IMG/VR virus record: IMGVR_UViG_3300032271_000462
Location: 1-22,452 of that record
Strand: one strand, 5' to 3'
Length of the DNA: 22,452 nt
Source of the DNA: a virus
How positions within the stretch are numbered: position 1 is the stretch's first letter; each line of letters begins with the position of its first letter. The translations under genes were made by a program, and so were the position numbers. Of this stretch, positions 1,013-21,139 are shown piece after piece. The notes beneath the pieces were generated by a model. It searched no databases and was not told the DNA's origin. It saw only the letters and a list, made by a program, of their open reading frames with translations.

Positions 1013-4000
1013 ATGCCAGCTACTTTAGATGAATTGATGGCGCCCGATTCTGGCACTAGCAAATCGGCGGCACAGACATCTCCCGCTAAACCCGCTAAGT
1101 CTTCTGGCGGGAGAACGCTTGATGAGTTGATGGCTTCTCCTTCTAAAGCTTCTTCTTCCTCTTCTTCTTCTCCTTCTTTCTTTGCTGGTCTTGAACCTAG
1201 CAATTGGTTTAAAGATCCACTTGGCCCAATTGGTAGGGGCGTTAGCCAAGGCGTAGGACAAGTTGCGTCGTTGATGTCGCACTCTCCAATTGGCCCTCCA
1301 GAAACCGCTGGCATGGGACGACCAGAAGTGTTTGCGGCTTTTGGGCAGCCAAAGGTAGCCGCCGACTTAAAGCAATATAACGAACAAGCAGAAGTCGCTA
1401 AAGAAAAATGGCGAGCGCACATTCACGATGTTGTTAAGTCTTATAACCCTGATCCAAAAACAACTGGTCTTATGTACCAGACAATCCAGGGTATTGCGAG
1501 GGTTGGCTCAGAGGCTTTGCTAGGTGGGCCGATGGCTGCACCTGTAGTCGGCGCAACAGAGACTGAAGCAAAGTACAGAGAACTTAAAGAAGCAGGGGTA
1601 GACGACAAAACTGCTACTGATGTGGCGGCTGTAACCGGCGCAATGATGGCAGCCGGTATTGTTATGCCTATGGCTTTTGGTGCCGGTATAGTAACAAAAG
1701 CTGTAACTGGCGGCACATCAAACGTCTTGCTTGGTATGGCAGGACGAAAAGCAGAGCATGAGATTCTGAAAAATGGTGGCTACACACAACTAGCCAACCA
1801 GTCCCAAGTATTCGAGCCATCAGCAATTGCGCTGGATGCGTTGATTGGTGGCGGCTTTGGTGCACTAGTTGGTGCGCGACCAAAGGAAGCCGCCGAGATT
1901 CTTCGTGACCCAGAGAACCTAAAGAAGCTCGAACAGCTTGAGGAAAAGCATGGGCCTGGAGTAAAGCCTGATGCTGATTTTGTTAAGCCGGTTGATCCTA
2001 AACTTGCTGAGTACCTTAAGAAGCGATGGGCTCCTCTTGTAGAGGAAGCAAAAAAGCCGCTTGAGGATATTGCAAAAGCGCAAGAGAAGCAAAAGATCAA
2101 AGCGCAAAAGGATGAGCAGCGCGCTAGAGAAAAAGAACTAGAGCCACCTAACCTTAAGACTGTTATCAAAGGACTTTCGCGCAAACCTCCTCCGCGTGTT
2201 AACGTACCAGAAACGCCTCCGCTTCTTGAGTACAAGCCGGTTATGTACGGTTCGCTCGATGGTCAAGCAATGATTAATGACCCTCGGGTTCAACACCAAG
2301 TTGTTAACAAAAGTCCTCCGAGACTTGAGGAACGATTGGCTGTTGCTTTTGGTAAAGACGAAAGCGCGGTTGACACGCATCTCAAGAATTTGTTTTTGCG
2401 TTCGATCCCAGGCAAGACTGGTGAAGCTAATCCTAACGTAACACCTGAACCTAAAACAGGTGAGATGACTAGTGTCGAAGTACATAGCGAGGAAGGAAAG
2501 CCAGAAGGTGATGTAGAATCTAAACCTGGGATTGTGTCTACCGTAGGCAAGCGGCTGTTTACCGCTGAAGGTAAGCAAGTAACCGCTGCGTATGGATTGT
2601 GGAAAGATCTGCATACCCGCATGAAACCGCTGTATCAAGCTGTTGCAAACATCCTTGGTAGAAGCGACGGGCTAGTTGGAACGGCGCATTACTATCTTGA
2701 CGAGATGATTTCTGCCACAGACCATCCAGCACTAAAGAGCTTGTTGGAGAGTATCCGCAAGCACGTTGACGACTTCGACATTTTTAAGAAGAAACCAAAG
2801 GCACCTGGTGCTGAAGGTGAATATGCAGCTGGCCCTCATTTCATAAGGATGCTTTGGAGCAAGTCCTTTATGAATGACTGGAAAGGTACAGCAACTCTTA
2901 TTCACGAGATTGTCCACGGAGCGACAACTCGTTTTATGTACTTGTTCCCGAATCATAAGTCTGTTGTTAGGTTGCGAGAACTTCGTAACGAAGCTTACGC
3001 ACGCGCTCAGCGTATGGCTAAAGACCTTGGTGTTGACATCCATACGCAGTACGGTTTTTCTGAAGTACATCAAAAGAGCAGCGGCATTCAGCATCTTGAT
3101 GATGAGGCTGGGCCAGACAACAAGTCTGTTGACGAGTTCCTTACAGAGGCTATGTCTAACCCAATCTTCCAGCGTACGCTTATGCTGAGCGAGAAGTACG
3201 CAACACCTGGGTTTAAGATTCAGTTGCCACTTGTAAACGAAGTTGCGAAAGCTATTCGCGAAATGTTTGGTATTAAGGGAGTTGAGGAGGCAAAGCTCCT
3301 TGACGAAGTATTCCATCATGGCCAAGAGGTTATGAAGGAGCAGGCGGCATTAACTGCTACCGGTGCGTTTAAAGGCGAATGGTGGAACCGGATCAGGGAA
3401 ATTACTAAGGCTTCTAAAAAGCCGGAGATGACTGCGGATCGTGCGCGTCTTAAGGAAATACAAGATTCTTTAGGCCAAAAGCTTTGGGGTAAAAACAAAG
3501 AAAGAGATCCTGAACTACGAAAAAAGATTCAGGAACAATATGACGAAATTCAATGGAGGCGTTTACAAGCTGACAATGCGGCTGAGAGACTTGATAACTC
3601 AAACAAAATGGTTCCGGCATTTCCAGGCTTTGGACCGAGGCTTCCTATTGGAACTCGCCTAATGGCTTCACATGGCTTTAGGTACCCGGAGCCAACCAAA
3701 GCTGTTGTTGTAGGGCACTCAGCACCTATCTCAACTAACGAAGGTTTAATGTTTCAGCACATAGTAGACTTCGGTAATGGAGACGAGCGTCGTATTGCTC
3801 GCAGCAACATCAGCGAAGTAATGTCCCCTCGACCAGTAACAGCGATTCCGCTAAACCAGTTGTCTGCAAGTGTTCGAGATGCTCTTGATGGTGTTGATCC
3901 TGGCCCTGCACCTAAAGCCGCACCAGCACTTGGGCCTGATGAGTCTCCGTTTGAACGGGCGTTCTCGTATGTTAAAGATGCCGCCAACACAGTACCGGCT

Positions 4001-14141: not shown

Positions 14142-15452
14142 CTACTTAAGTGAGGACAATCTCTCAACACAGATGCCGTATGCAGCTGCATTTTGCTCGA
14201 TGCCGATTGCTTTGCATTTCATCTCATGCGCTGCAGGAAAAATTGGGCCGCTACCTGCAAAAGGATCCATCACTACGTTGCCAGGGACTACCGAGCGGCG
14301 CAGCAAATCAACATACAAGTCAACAGGCTTCTGAGCAGGATGATTTAAGTTCTCGTCGGAAGTGTACGTCATCACATCTGGGTAGATGCGTGTGACTAAC
14401 TTATCCCCCTTCACAGCGTACAGACAGATTTGGTACTTGCGCTGAGGCCCCATCTCAACCCAAGGGGTACGCATAGCTGTAGGGTTAACCCAGATGAACG
14501 GAGTGCGGAAACACTTCCAGCCCGCGTTAGACATGATAGACTTCAAGATTACAAAGTTATCCATGTCGCAGAACACATAAGCGTGTGCTTGGTTCTTGGC
14601 AATACGGAAGGATTCTGAAGAGAACCCCATCATCAACTCTTTCCATGTGTCAAAGGAATCGTCGTAGAAGTGTGCGCCGGGAGTCATGCCGCCCGAGTCA
14701 CCAAACTTCTGGGCATCAATGCCATACGGCGGGTCTGTCAGGAACACATCGACTGTATCGCTTTCCATCTTCTTCATCTCTTCCAGACAGTCGCCGTGGA
14801 ACAGCTGGTGGACGGCGGCACTAAACGTCTTGCCAACAGACACGCCCAAGGCTTCCGACTTCTTGATCTCTTCTTTTCTCTTTAGGATCTTGAATGCTTC
14901 GGTAGCTGATTTGGCTTTCTGGATGTCCGGGTCTGTGAGGTTCTTTGATACGAGGATCTCTTCTCGAGTGAGGTTGTATGCGCCGCCGCTGTCGCCGCGA
15001 ACCTCGGAAGCTATGTCTGCGATGGTCGGCGGCTTGTCTCCACTCTTCTCTGCCTGAAGACGACGCAGCTCATATAGCTGTGACGTTGCCGCGGCTTTCT
15101 CTTGCCAAGACAAGTCTTCTCGCTTGATGTTTTCTTCGAGCTCCATCTCAAAGGCATCAATGTCACTCAAGTCGCCTTGCTGTATGCAAGGAATCATATG
15201 TTCCTCGTACACAACACCTGCGCACTTGAATGTCTGACCAAAGTTCCAGACGTATTGCATAGCCTTCATGCGTCGCTCGCCCGCAATAAGCAGCGGCTTG
15301 CCATCTTCATCAAGTCGAATAACTACAGGATGAATCAAGCCGATTGTGCTGATCGAGTTGGCCAGTGCTACGATAGACTCTGGCTTAAACTCCTTTCGCT
15401 GTCGCTTCTCCGCAATTCGCAAGTGAGATATATGCACCGGGATAATTGACAT
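14142..15452 (-). CDS. ParB-domain / DNA adenine methyltransferase fusion
   Basis: 436 residues. The N-terminal ParB/Srx-like domain (about 1-120) carries the GERR nucleotide-binding box (LIAGERR, 55-61) and ENIKREDLSWQEKA (107-120), followed by a helical linker. The C-terminal domain (about 213-436) is an N6-adenine/N4-cytosine methyltransferase of the circularly permuted beta class: catalytic DPPY at 240-243, HPAQKP near 371-376 and the AdoMet-binding FAGSG at 398-402 after the catalytic motif. It likely modifies phage DNA, perhaps against host restriction; the ParB domain may give sequence recognition or NTP binding. AAGGAA precedes the ATG. It starts just downstream of a strong intrinsic terminator, so expression depends on read-through or a promoter I could not identify. 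Recognition sequence unknown. Confidence 0.92.
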   Translation of the reverse strand: MSIIPVHISHLRIAEKRQRKEFKPESIVALANSISTIGLIHPVVIRLDEDGKPLLIAGERRMKAMQYVWNFGQTFKCAGVVYEEHMIPCIQQGDLSDIDAFEMELEENIKREDLSWQEKAAATSQLYELRRLQAEKSGDKPPTIADIASEVRGDSGGAYNLTREEILVSKNLTDPDIQKAKSATEAFKILKRKEEIKKSEALGVSVGKTFSAAVHQLFHGDCLEEMKKMESDTVDVFLTDPPYGIDAQKFGDSGGMTPGAHFYDDSFDTWKELMMGFSSESFRIAKNQAHAYVFCDMDNFVILKSIMSNAGWKCFRTPFIWVNPTAMRTPWVEMGPQRKYQICLYAVKGDKLVTRIYPDVMTYTSDENLNHPAQKPVDLYVDLLRRSVVPGNVVMDPFAGSGPIFPAAHEMKCKAIGIEQNAAAYGICVERLSSLK

Positions 15453-18734: not shown

Positions 18735-18912
18735 TAGGGGTCTCCAGGTTGTTTAGGTAATCACGGAGCAACTGGACGATCAAGTTTTGGTATGCTCCTT
18801 TTGGTACACGACCTTCGATTTCAGAGTACAAGTGAAGAGAAACCTTCGTCCACACATCTTCAGGGATGGTGGTGTGAAGGCTCACAGGTCTAATGATATT
18901 TGCTCTTCGCAC
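18727..18912 (-). CDS. Small protein, possible ribbon-helix-helix type
   Basis: 61 residues with a GTG start at 18912, preceded by GAGGAG at ideal spacing. An alternative GTG at 18885 would make a GTGA overlap but has no Shine-Dalgarno match. The VSLHTTIPEDVWTKV strand-then-helix opening and a second helix (GAYQNLIVQLLRDYL) resemble ribbon-helix-helix DNA-binding proteins, though this is a weak, fold-level guess. The coding region overlaps the upstream gene by 31 bp, a fairly long overlap for this block. Confidence 0.68.
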   Translation of the reverse strand: MRRANIIRPVSLHTTIPEDVWTKVSLHLYSEIEGRVPKGAYQNLIVQLLRDYLNNLETPNV

Positions 18913-19109
18913 TTAAACATCTCCTCATCAATAAGTTTGCGCCACTGCTCAATTGTCTTGCCGTCGCGATTCTTGAAGTACCAACGGAATCGGTCAGCGT
19001 CAAAGTTAATTTTAACTTCTGGCTTTTTGGGAACCCTCGGCGGCTTTGACACCGCCGGGGTCTTCCACGACTGCTCGAGCAACTGATCGAGGTCGCGGAA
19101 CTTACTCAT
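18882..19109 (-). CDS. Small hypothetical protein
   Basis: 75 residues, not recognised. A helical N-terminus (FRDLDQLLEQSW) leads into a Pro/Lys-rich linker (PPRVPKKPEVK) and then an aromatic/charged segment (FDADRFRWYFKNRDGKTIEQW) with an acidic C-terminal helix. The start overlaps the upstream stop by 4 bp (ATGA). Its 3' end carries the ribosome binding site of the next gene. It is likely translationally coupled to its neighbours. Confidence 0.68.
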   Translation of the reverse strand: MSKFRDLDQLLEQSWKTPAVSKPPRVPKKPEVKINFDADRFRWYFKNRDGKTIEQWRKLIDEEMFKCEEQISLDL

Positions 19110-19426
19110 GGCGAAGGCAACGCCCGGAGCTGCTGAAGCTGCTCTTCAACTTCCTGCAGCTCGCCAGAGTACTTATCAACGAGCTCGGCCTTGCGAGCCT
19201 CGAGTGCGCTGATCTCCAAGGCCACACGATCGTCGTGCGGAACCTTGGGAAGCTTGACCTCAATAACCTCAGAAACACGAGCGAAGCGCGTGCTGTCCAT
19301 CTCCATCTCAAGCACCTCCTTGACAGCGAGGTACTTGTACAAAACGCTGCGATACACAGCAATCTTGTAAGTGAAGTGGGAATCGGCGTGCTCGGGACGG
19401 AAGCCCGAGATGTCTACAGTTTCCAT
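19106..19426 (-). CDS. Coiled-coil hypothetical protein, first gene after consensus promoter
   Basis: 106 residues from the ATG at 19426, which has AAGGAG 6 bases upstream; a longer frame to 19498 would start upstream of the promoter -10 element and is rejected. The N-terminal half is mixed (METVDISGFRPEHADSHFTY, KIAVYRSVLYKYLAVKEVLE). The C-terminal half (about 66-105) is a Glu/Leu/Lys-rich helix (LEISALEARKAELVDKY, ELQEVEEQLQQL) with coiled-coil heptads. No family recognised. As the first gene of the transcription unit that leads into the recombination genes, it could be a regulatory or assembly factor, but that is only positional. Confidence 0.75.
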   Translation of the reverse strand: METVDISGFRPEHADSHFTYKIAVYRSVLYKYLAVKEVLEMEMDSTRFARVSEVIEVKLPKVPHDDRVALEISALEARKAELVDKYSGELQEVEEQLQQLRALPSP

Positions 19427-19443
19427 CGAAGTCTCCTTAACTG

Positions 19444-19466: not shown

Positions 19467-19495
19467 ATCATACGCGGTATGTGGACATATGTCAA
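19467..19495 (-). promoter_or_regulatory. Consensus sigma70-like promoter
   Basis: On the minus strand a perfect -35 TTGACA (19490-19495) and a -10 TATGAT (19467-19472, 5 of 6) are separated by 17 bp, so this is the strongest promoter-like sequence I found in the window. A 10-bp palindrome GACATATGTC (19484-19493) overlaps the -35, and CATAC/GTATG arms sit across the spacer, both candidate operators. Transcription would start near 19460 and run into the 106-residue gene and the recombination cluster. Confidence 0.85.
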
Positions 19496-19553: not shown

Positions 19554-19724
19554 CTAATAATTATCATTGTCTGATTTCCCGATTATCTCGTTGCGAACGA
19601 TTATTACATCATCAGGTGCTTCAATGCCAAGCTTAACTTGGTTCCCGTTGATTTCCCTGACATACACCGTGATGTCGTCGCCTATAGCAATCCATTGCCC
19701 AGGCTTTCGCGTTAACACAAGCAT
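19554..19724 (-). CDS. csrA: CsrA-family RNA-binding translational regulator
   Basis: 56 residues. The sequence follows CsrA/RsmA from end to end: MLVLTRKPGQ at the start, IGDDITV at 14-20, NGNQVKLGIEAP at 27-38 and Arg44 in the position of the key RNA-contacting Arg of E. coli CsrA (which has HREE; here VRNE). CsrA works as a dimer that binds GGA-containing hairpins near ribosome binding sites to repress or stabilise mRNAs. The length is nearly that of host proteins (about 61), with a short polar tail (SDNDNY). AAGGAG lies 9 bases before the ATG, which overlaps the upstream stop (TAATG). A phage copy could redirect host metabolism or time phage translation; that role is inference, the family identity is firm. 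Confidence 0.95.
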   Translation of the reverse strand: MLVLTRKPGQWIAIGDDITVYVREINGNQVKLGIEAPDDVIIVRNEIIGKSDNDNY

Positions 19725-20071
19725 TACTTCGTACTCCTTCGCGACGCCGAGAAGTAACCTTGGCGGTATGCCATCCAGATTTCTAACTCGAGTTCCTGCG
19801 AGATCACGCGATCTGGCTTCAAGAACTTCCAGGCTTTCTTGTACTTTGTGACGGCTTTATCTGCGAACCGCTGGGCTTCTTCATCGAGCTCGTCCTGCTC
19901 TTCTTCAGTCGTTTCCTTCATGTTCTCGCTGTCGCAGTACGGGCAGGTTTCAGCTGCGTCTGATTCCATATCTACCCACATCGAGCCGTATGGCACCTTG
20001 GTGTGGTCTACATAGACCCGCGGCTCCGTGAAGGTTTCTTCGCAATCCAAGCACAAAAGTATACTTTCCAT
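19724..20071 (-). CDS. Zinc-ribbon protein upstream of csrA
   Basis: 115 residues. Cys7/Cys10 (CLDC) and Cys43/Cys46 (CPYC) form a likely zinc ribbon at the N-terminus, followed by a very acidic helix (about 50-68, with runs of Glu/Asp) and a basic helical C-terminus (KAVTKYKKAWKFLKPDR, ASRRSTK). The split into an acidic and a basic half suggests protein or nucleic-acid contacts. No known family was recognised beyond the ribbon. It overlaps the csrA start by 1 bp (TAATG), so the two are probably translationally coupled. Confidence 0.75.
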   Translation of the reverse strand: MESILLCLDCEETFTEPRVYVDHTKVPYGSMWVDMESDAAETCPYCDSENMKETTEEEQDELDEEAQRFADKAVTKYKKAWKFLKPDRVISQELELEIWMAYRQGYFSASRRSTK

Positions 20072-20073
20072 AT

Positions 20074-20415
20074 TTACTTCCTCATTTGACGTTTGACTAC
20101 TTCTTCCAACTCAACAACTTTATCTTTCTCTTGCTTCAGGTATCGGATAAGTTTATCGCGATCCATCCGCAGCCTTTCAATGTCTCTATAGGCAACAGCG
20201 AGTGCTTCGCGCAGTCGCATTAAGTCTCCCATTGCCCTGATTTCTTGTTTGATTTCTTCTACCCAAGCAGGTTGCGCCAAGATGGGGTCTTCCGATTTTA
20301 TCAGATCCTGCATCTGGCCTTGTTTTGCACCTTGTGTGCTGCGGGTAAACAGCTTTCCCACTTCACCTCCGTATTTAGCTAGCAAAAAAGGGAAGTCAAT
20401 GTGATTAGGGCACAT
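20074..20415 (-). CDS. Coiled-coil hypothetical protein
   Basis: 113 residues from the ATG at 20415; a TTG codon immediately before it is also open but less likely. The N-terminal part (MCPNHIDFPFLLAKYGGEVGKLF) may be globular. From about residue 50 a continuous charged helix runs to the end (EEIKQEIRAMGDLMRLREAL, DIERLRMDRDKLIRYLKQ, KVVELEEVVKRQ), with heptad spacing of Leu/Val/Ile, so a dimeric coiled coil is expected. The upstream Shine-Dalgarno is an A/G-rich AAGGGA. No family recognised. It follows a 109-bp gap that may hold an RNA structure. Confidence 0.72.
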   Translation of the reverse strand: MCPNHIDFPFLLAKYGGEVGKLFTRSTQGAKQGQMQDLIKSEDPILAQPAWVEEIKQEIRAMGDLMRLREALAVAYRDIERLRMDRDKLIRYLKQEKDKVVELEEVVKRQMRK

Positions 20416-20524
20416 CAACTTCCCTTCCGCCTATCTCTGGAGACTAAACCTAGATAGACTCGTCGACTATGCGAAGCCGCGCATTTTGGGGCTATCCGTC
20501 TTACGCTCGCATAACCGCCTAACC
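20416..20524 (-). other. Intergenic gap with long inverted repeat
   Basis: This 109-bp gap on the minus strand has TATGCGA (20507-20513) and TCGCATA (20465-20471) arms, extendable by GC/GC with a one-base bulge, enclosing about 35 bases. No U-tract follows, so it is not a standard intrinsic terminator. No convincing promoter or ORF longer than a few codons was seen. It may be an mRNA processing or stability element between two genes of the leftward block. Confidence 0.4.
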
Positions 20525-21073
20525 TTAGCCGAGGCCAGCCAAAAGCTCGTCGGTGTTGACCTTCGAACCCTTCGCAACCTTCTCGGCTTCCAGACGCTCA
20601 ACAATGGGCTTGAGCTTCGAGCTGTTACGCAGAGCCATCTTCTCGGCCTGGCTCTTACCCGACAGGAACTCCTTGACCTGATCCGCATTGCGGCCAGAGA
20701 ACTCCATGAGAGCGCGCAACAGGATCGAGGTACCGGCAGCACCCGAACCACCCTCGCGCTTGACCGACCACTCGCCGCGATGCAAGCGAGCAATCAAATC
20801 GTCGATTGCCAAGACCATATCATCCGGGTCTTCCACGCCGGCAGTCTCGTCGCCAAGCTTCTGCTCAGCACCGTGACCCGCGAAGCGCAGGAGGAGGTCG
20901 TGCGGGATCGGGAAGGTGCGCGTCTCACCATTGCGGAAGTCCAACCGCACCGAGACATGATTGCCTTCGATGTGGGTCTCCTTCAGCATCTTCCGCTTGC
21001 CGACGAACTCAACGTGACGCCCATCAGTCATGTGGACGACATCAGACTTCGCGGCATTTCCATTATCAGACAT
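20525..21073 (-). CDS. Conserved phage protein of unknown function
   Basis: 182 residues from the ATG at 21073 (GGAG 6 bases upstream); an upstream TTG overlaps the Shine-Dalgarno and is rejected. The protein opens with VVHMTDGRHVEFVGKRKMLK, continues with VRLDFRNGETRTFPIPHDLL and RFAGHGAEQKLGDE, has an acidic VEDPDDMVLAIDDLIARL helix, and ends with GTSILLRALMEFSGRNADQV and KPIVERLEAEKVAKG. I recognise this as a widespread family in proteobacterial phages and prophages, but its function is unknown to me. It is the first gene behind a good promoter, so it is probably made early and abundantly. A strand/helix-rich fold without catalytic motifs suggests a DNA- or protein-binding role. Confidence 0.82.
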   Translation of the reverse strand: MSDNGNAAKSDVVHMTDGRHVEFVGKRKMLKETHIEGNHVSVRLDFRNGETRTFPIPHDLLLRFAGHGAEQKLGDETAGVEDPDDMVLAIDDLIARLHRGEWSVKREGGSGAAGTSILLRALMEFSGRNADQVKEFLSGKSQAEKMALRNSSKLKPIVERLEAEKVAKGSKVNTDELLAGLG

Positions 21074-21139
21074 AGCTATCTCCAATCAATTAACTGGGGT
21101 CTTTTATTTACTGAGGCGACTTCCCGATTCCTCACGCGA

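Follow-up and report, generated by a model that had tools for sequence, protein, structure and literature searches.

A diverged CsrA-family protein in a phage gene cassette next to a candidate antisense RNA

The 56-residue protein encoded by csrA in this environmental phage is a true but diverged member of the CsrA family. Its gene is the last one of a small cassette which, as synteny shows, is inserted into the early region of the phage. Directly beside the cassette lies a conserved hairpin RNA, a candidate for a new family of phage antisense small RNAs and the more novel of the two elements. We consider it quite probable that this undescribed small RNA pairs with extended SD sequences of its own phage and controls their translation in trans, and that the CsrA cassette split the RNA from its ancestral operon. 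The phage CsrA itself is likely to be an accessory protein that acts separately from the neighbouring RNA.

The phage and its relatives

The window, i.e. the whole stretch of DNA analysed here, is a 22.5-kb linear IMG/VR fragment (22,452 nucleotides). Its minus strand carries a replication and early block with primase/helicase, DNA polymerase, ParB-methyltransferase, Sak4-like and exonuclease genes, and csrA lies in this module, in agreement with the early/middle setting given in the original prediction. Relatives identified by their DNA polymerase are environmental phages; records with a name include MW202489 ('Bacteriophage sp.', 51%) and Microcystis phage Mel-JY34 (45%). Taken from these relatives, the size of the phage is probably ~40-50 kb. 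The ORF at 14142-15452 on the minus strand combines a ParB-like N-terminal part with a DNA methyltransferase C-terminal part and is conserved in relatives. The features around csrA are collected in Table 1.

Table 1. Positions of the features at the csrA locus of the window
Feature	Position	Strand	Basis
75-aa gene on the other flank, conserved in order	18882-19109		
GGAGACT, the SD heptamer for gene 19106-19426; complement to the loop of the hairpin RNA and its ancestral target downstream	19430..19436	-	
Sigma70-like promoter of the next operon, TTGACA-17-TATGAT, 11/12 matches	19467..19495	-	
csrA, 56 aa, PF02599	19554..19724	-	Pfam, PHROG, phmmer, AlphaFold
115-aa ORF with CxxC...CxxC, putative zinc ribbon; stop overlaps csrA start by 1 bp	19724..20071	-	
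Coiled-coil-like ORF of ~95 aa, first gene of the cassette; probable GTG start 20361, SD GGAGG	20074..20361	-	
Intrinsic terminator ending the hairpin RNA	20385..20428	-	predicted fold
Conserved hairpin RNA, stem GUCUAUCU/AGAUAGGC, loop AGGUUUAGUCUCCAG	20429..20459	-	
Anti-SD heptamer AGUCUCC in the hairpin loop	20445-20439	-	
186-aa gene upstream of the hairpin RNA, conserved synteny anchor	20525..21085	-	

The phage protein belongs to the CsrA family

Against the CsrA family (Pfam: PF02599) the csrA product scores 72.9 bits, well over the curated cut-off of 27 bits, with an E value of 2e-20 and a match to positions 2-49 of the 53 in the model, and in a six-frame search of the window the same family scored 76.7 bits. 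It also matches the CsrA-like PHROG families 5527 and 9500 and, by phmmer, solved RsmE, RsmA and CsrA chains. The AlphaFold model (pLDDT 83) keeps the CsrA fold, as the eight PDB matches with E <= 0.001 are all CsrA, RsmA or RsmE chains with a TM-score (query) of 0.67-0.70. The family identity of the original prediction is therefore confirmed by profile, sequence and structure comparisons. In the model the C-terminal tail ends at residue 56, with residues 52-56 disordered at a pLDDT below 50, and no alpha helix is called after the last strand in this short tail of low confidence.

The residues M1, L2, R6, A36, R44 and E46, which are invariant in the family, are all retained, as is L4; R6, R44 and E46 are identical throughout the 40 CsrA sequences that we aligned. 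At position 43 the phage protein has a valine, compared with the histidine of the VHRE/D motif, so that the retention of R44 and the replacement of H43 had both been read correctly. It had also been suggested that RNA preference may differ because of this replacement and the altered tail, which stands only in part. In the plasmid protein RsmQ the H43A mutation reduces RNA binding (PMC9928087), and the H43V substitution could affect the phage CsrA as well. However, histidine occupies position 43 in only 14 of 31 bacterial CsrAs (and in 3 of 9 phage CsrAs) of the alignment, and H43 therefore does not define the family. Since the position varies among bacterial CsrAs, V43 by itself does not point to an unusual RNA preference.

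Phage-borne CsrA is already a documented kind of protein, to which the window adds a diverged accessory member. A survey found csrA in 30 of 2517 phages (PMC7366521), a search of GenBank and IMG/VR for phage csrA led to the proposal that CRISPR-Cas is suppressed (PMC8450108), and Bci of phage AUS531phi has been knocked out, with data for quorum sensing and for infection (PMC7546807). Post-transcriptional takeover of the host by a phage CsrA, as raised in the original prediction, is a published hypothesis (PMC8450108, PMC7366521) for which Bci is the one experimental precedent; the window sequence itself contains no sign of it. Our searches gave 83 phage and 239 plasmid records with a similar CsrA and 18 additional csrA loci in IMG/VR. 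The best identity to any CsrA found is at most 65% over 46 aa, and the identity to phage-encoded CsrA/RsmA proteins is 52-64%.

Like the RsmM-type proteins of Pseudomonas phages F116 and phi297, Bci of AUS531phi and the CsrAs of Vibrio phages, the protein consists of a single PF02599 domain with the invariant R6, R44 and E46. It differs from them in belonging to another, environmental phage family, in its 56 aa and V43, and in being encoded by the last gene of a zinc-ribbon cassette. The plasmid protein RsmQ, which binds GGA/AnGGA, is likewise a CsrA of a mobile element with GGA-bearing host mRNAs as expected targets (PMC9928087); RsmQ has the VHRE/D motif with H43, whereas the window CsrA has V-R. 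In a tree built on 62 columns the phage CsrAs are scattered among the bacterial ones, with 8 label changes, and the window protein was not placed. We rejected the prediction of a host from the CsrA phylogeny, because no supported group formed around the window protein.

A cassette inserted between a hairpin RNA and the next operon

The cassette of ~0.8 kb encodes the coiled coil, the putative zinc ribbon and finally CsrA, and it follows the hairpin RNA with its terminator and precedes the promoter of the next operon. The flanking gene order is kept in L122, L020, L034 and others, and the three genes of the cassette have no counterpart there. In L122 and L020 the gap at the cassette position is short, and promoter sequences similar to that of the window are found at the same place. 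The GC content is 43% at the inserted locus compared with 49% for the contig. Among 85 related records, many of which are fragments so that absence is not proven for each, csrA was found in two, both times elsewhere than in the window, namely upstream of the 186-aa gene (L201, minus strand 2891-3088; L202, minus strand 3445-3654). The differing positions in members of the family suggest independent captures. csrA is therefore an accessory gene that was apparently gained more than once in this phage family, and it would illustrate the repeated independent capture of a known type of regulator within one family.

The predicted 1-bp overlap between csrA and the preceding ORF is correct, as the stop codon TAA of the latter and the ATG of csrA have base 19724 in common. 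The zinc ribbon proposed for this preceding ORF is plausible but unproven, with four cysteines in two CxxC pairs (CLDC and CPYC) on the one side and exclusively sub-threshold matches to zinc-ribbon Pfam families on the other. Similarly, the proposed operon agrees with the apparent co-transcription of the two genes, but no homologue of the 115-aa ORF was found by peptide-pattern scan or tblastn, and on this ground the zinc ribbon was rejected as a conserved partner of CsrA. The coiled-coil ORF probably starts at the GTG, because the alternative TTG start at 20418 (ORF 20074-20418, minus strand) falls within the terminator stem.

In other phages (L013/L014 and L003/L005-L007/L011), small cysteine-rich genes unrelated to that of the window likewise precede csrA. 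In the relative L020, which is without csrA, the intergenic slot that corresponds to the cassette position (~575-930) holds a small zinc-ribbon-like ORF. It has two CxxC pairs, is unrelated to that of the window, and its SD is GGAGACTC.

Possible role of the phage CsrA

We regard it as likely that the accessory CsrA changes the translation of GGA-bearing mRNAs, chiefly those of the host. The protein would be made early and dimerise as other CsrA proteins do, and its R6 and R44 would contact GGA/AnGGA motifs. By analogy with the family, translation of mRNAs that bear such motifs would be altered, most of them host mRNAs, and the phage protein would supplement the CsrA of the host or compete with it, in line with proposals for other CsrAs of phages and plasmids. 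The cassette CsrA and the hairpin RNA would then be separate regulators at the level of translation and neighbours by chance.

The original prediction had also considered that the phage uses its CsrA to time its own translation. Phage mRNAs would then be the main targets, and early and middle translation would be timed by blocking ribosome-binding sites (RBSs) with AnGGA. This motif is present in 9 of 24 RBS regions of the window (random stretches of 20 nt: about 6%). The RBS of csrA itself has AAGGA. However, two csrA-less relatives have AnGGA at 9/36 and 10/36 of their RBSs, a difference from the window that is not significant; furthermore, an ordinary SD sequence overlaps with AnGGA, and the csrA RBS is not within a hairpin loop of the predicted fold. 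The lack of a clear enrichment over csrA-less relatives argues against a main role in self-timing, which we consider unlikely. Autoregulation of csrA was rejected on the same grounds, since AAGGA is outside any predicted hairpin loop and the AnGGA rate is similar to that of csrA-less relatives.

Less likely again is an antagonist that dimerises with host CsrA or occupies the Csr sRNAs of the host and relieves repression. V43 and the shortened tail could be adaptations to such a role, and the weakening of RsmQ by H43A (PMC9928087) would fit, but the RNA-contact residues R44 and R6 are retained and bacterial CsrAs are variable at position 43 too. That csrA is a captured bacterial gene with no selected role in the phage seems very improbable to us: its patchy occurrence (2/85 relatives) and the GC content of 43% against 49% for the contig are compatible with a passenger, whereas the frame is intact, the invariant residues are retained despite the strong divergence (at most 65% over 46 aa), and csrA overlaps the preceding gene as in a coupled operon.

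A conserved hairpin RNA downstream of the 186-aa gene

The hairpin RNA recurs 3' of the 186-aa gene in more than 20 relatives, and counterparts of 20385-20459 are found in L122, L020, L024, L037, L127, L130, L170, L171, L184, L189 and MW202489.1. Downstream of the 186-aa gene the loop motif is enclosed by a hairpin in 17/46 cases, compared with 6/208 elsewhere. In 23 hand-parsed elements, whose stems were selected for pairing, the outer stem GUC..GGC is conserved and the inner pairs are of several Watson-Crick types, so that the stem covaries. The loop heptamer is AGUCUCC or GAGCCUC across the relatives, and the loop variants are UUAGUCUCC, UGAGUCUCC and UUGAGCCUC.

No Rfam family reached the gathering score for the hairpin RNA; the sole match at that score was a tRNA in L184, and a permissive Rfam scan gave only a sub-threshold hit. 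In the open-access literature we found no description of such an RNA. As no promoter was found directly upstream, the RNA could derive from the 3' end of the transcript of the 186-aa gene. A sponge of the CsrB type was rejected, because the loops hold UCUCC or CCUC and not GGA and because the RNA is conserved in relatives without csrA.

The loop matches SD sequences of the same phage

The complementarity of the loop to SDs covers an extension beyond what ribosome binding would account for, and the two vary together. Phages with an AGUCUCC loop have 22 GGAGACU and no GAGGCUC SDs, compared with 6 GGAGACU and 26 GAGGCUC SDs in phages with a GAGCCUC loop (Fisher 5e-10, with relatedness ignored and several B-class loci being close relatives of one another). 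Within the AGUCUCC class, UGAGUCUCC loops occur together with GGAGACUC in 7/8 cases and UUAGUCUCC loops in 1/14. The longest complement between a loop and the SD that comes first downstream in the same phage has a mean of 7.4 nt, compared with 5.5 nt after permutation, and none of 2000 permutations, which ignore phylogeny, reached the observed fit. The match is 10 nt long in MW202489, 11 nt in L184 and 10 nt in L189, and a predicted target gene in L122 has the SD AAGGAGACUC. The complementarity was first noticed on the window, L122, L020, L037 and L127, so these five are partly circular; the choice of the other hairpin elements relied on loop motif and stem and took no account of the SD.

In the permutation comparison the window scores only 5 nt, as the cassette now provides the gene that comes first downstream. 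The RBSs of the cassette itself are without a loop match. The operon behind the cassette keeps the match (SD 19436-19430), with 7 nt at this ancestral target.

Similar to lambda PreS, VpdS and DicF (reviewed in PMC12197685), the hairpin RNA is a small phage RNA that may pair near the ribosome-binding site of an mRNA. It differs from them in that it is predicted to target several SDs of the phage that encodes it, that loop and SD change together across the phage family, and that it has no Rfam family at gathering score. If real, the RNA would matter more than the CsrA: it would define a family-wide phage antisense regulon, with joint changes in the loop and its target SDs that make the targets predictable from sequence alone, and would be a clear case of phage self-control by RNA-RNA pairing at ribosome-binding sites.

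One of the relatives, MW202489.1, has an ORF of ~60 aa at 39992-40171 whose annotation as OXA-58 class D beta-lactamase is almost certainly wrong, judging from the length alone.
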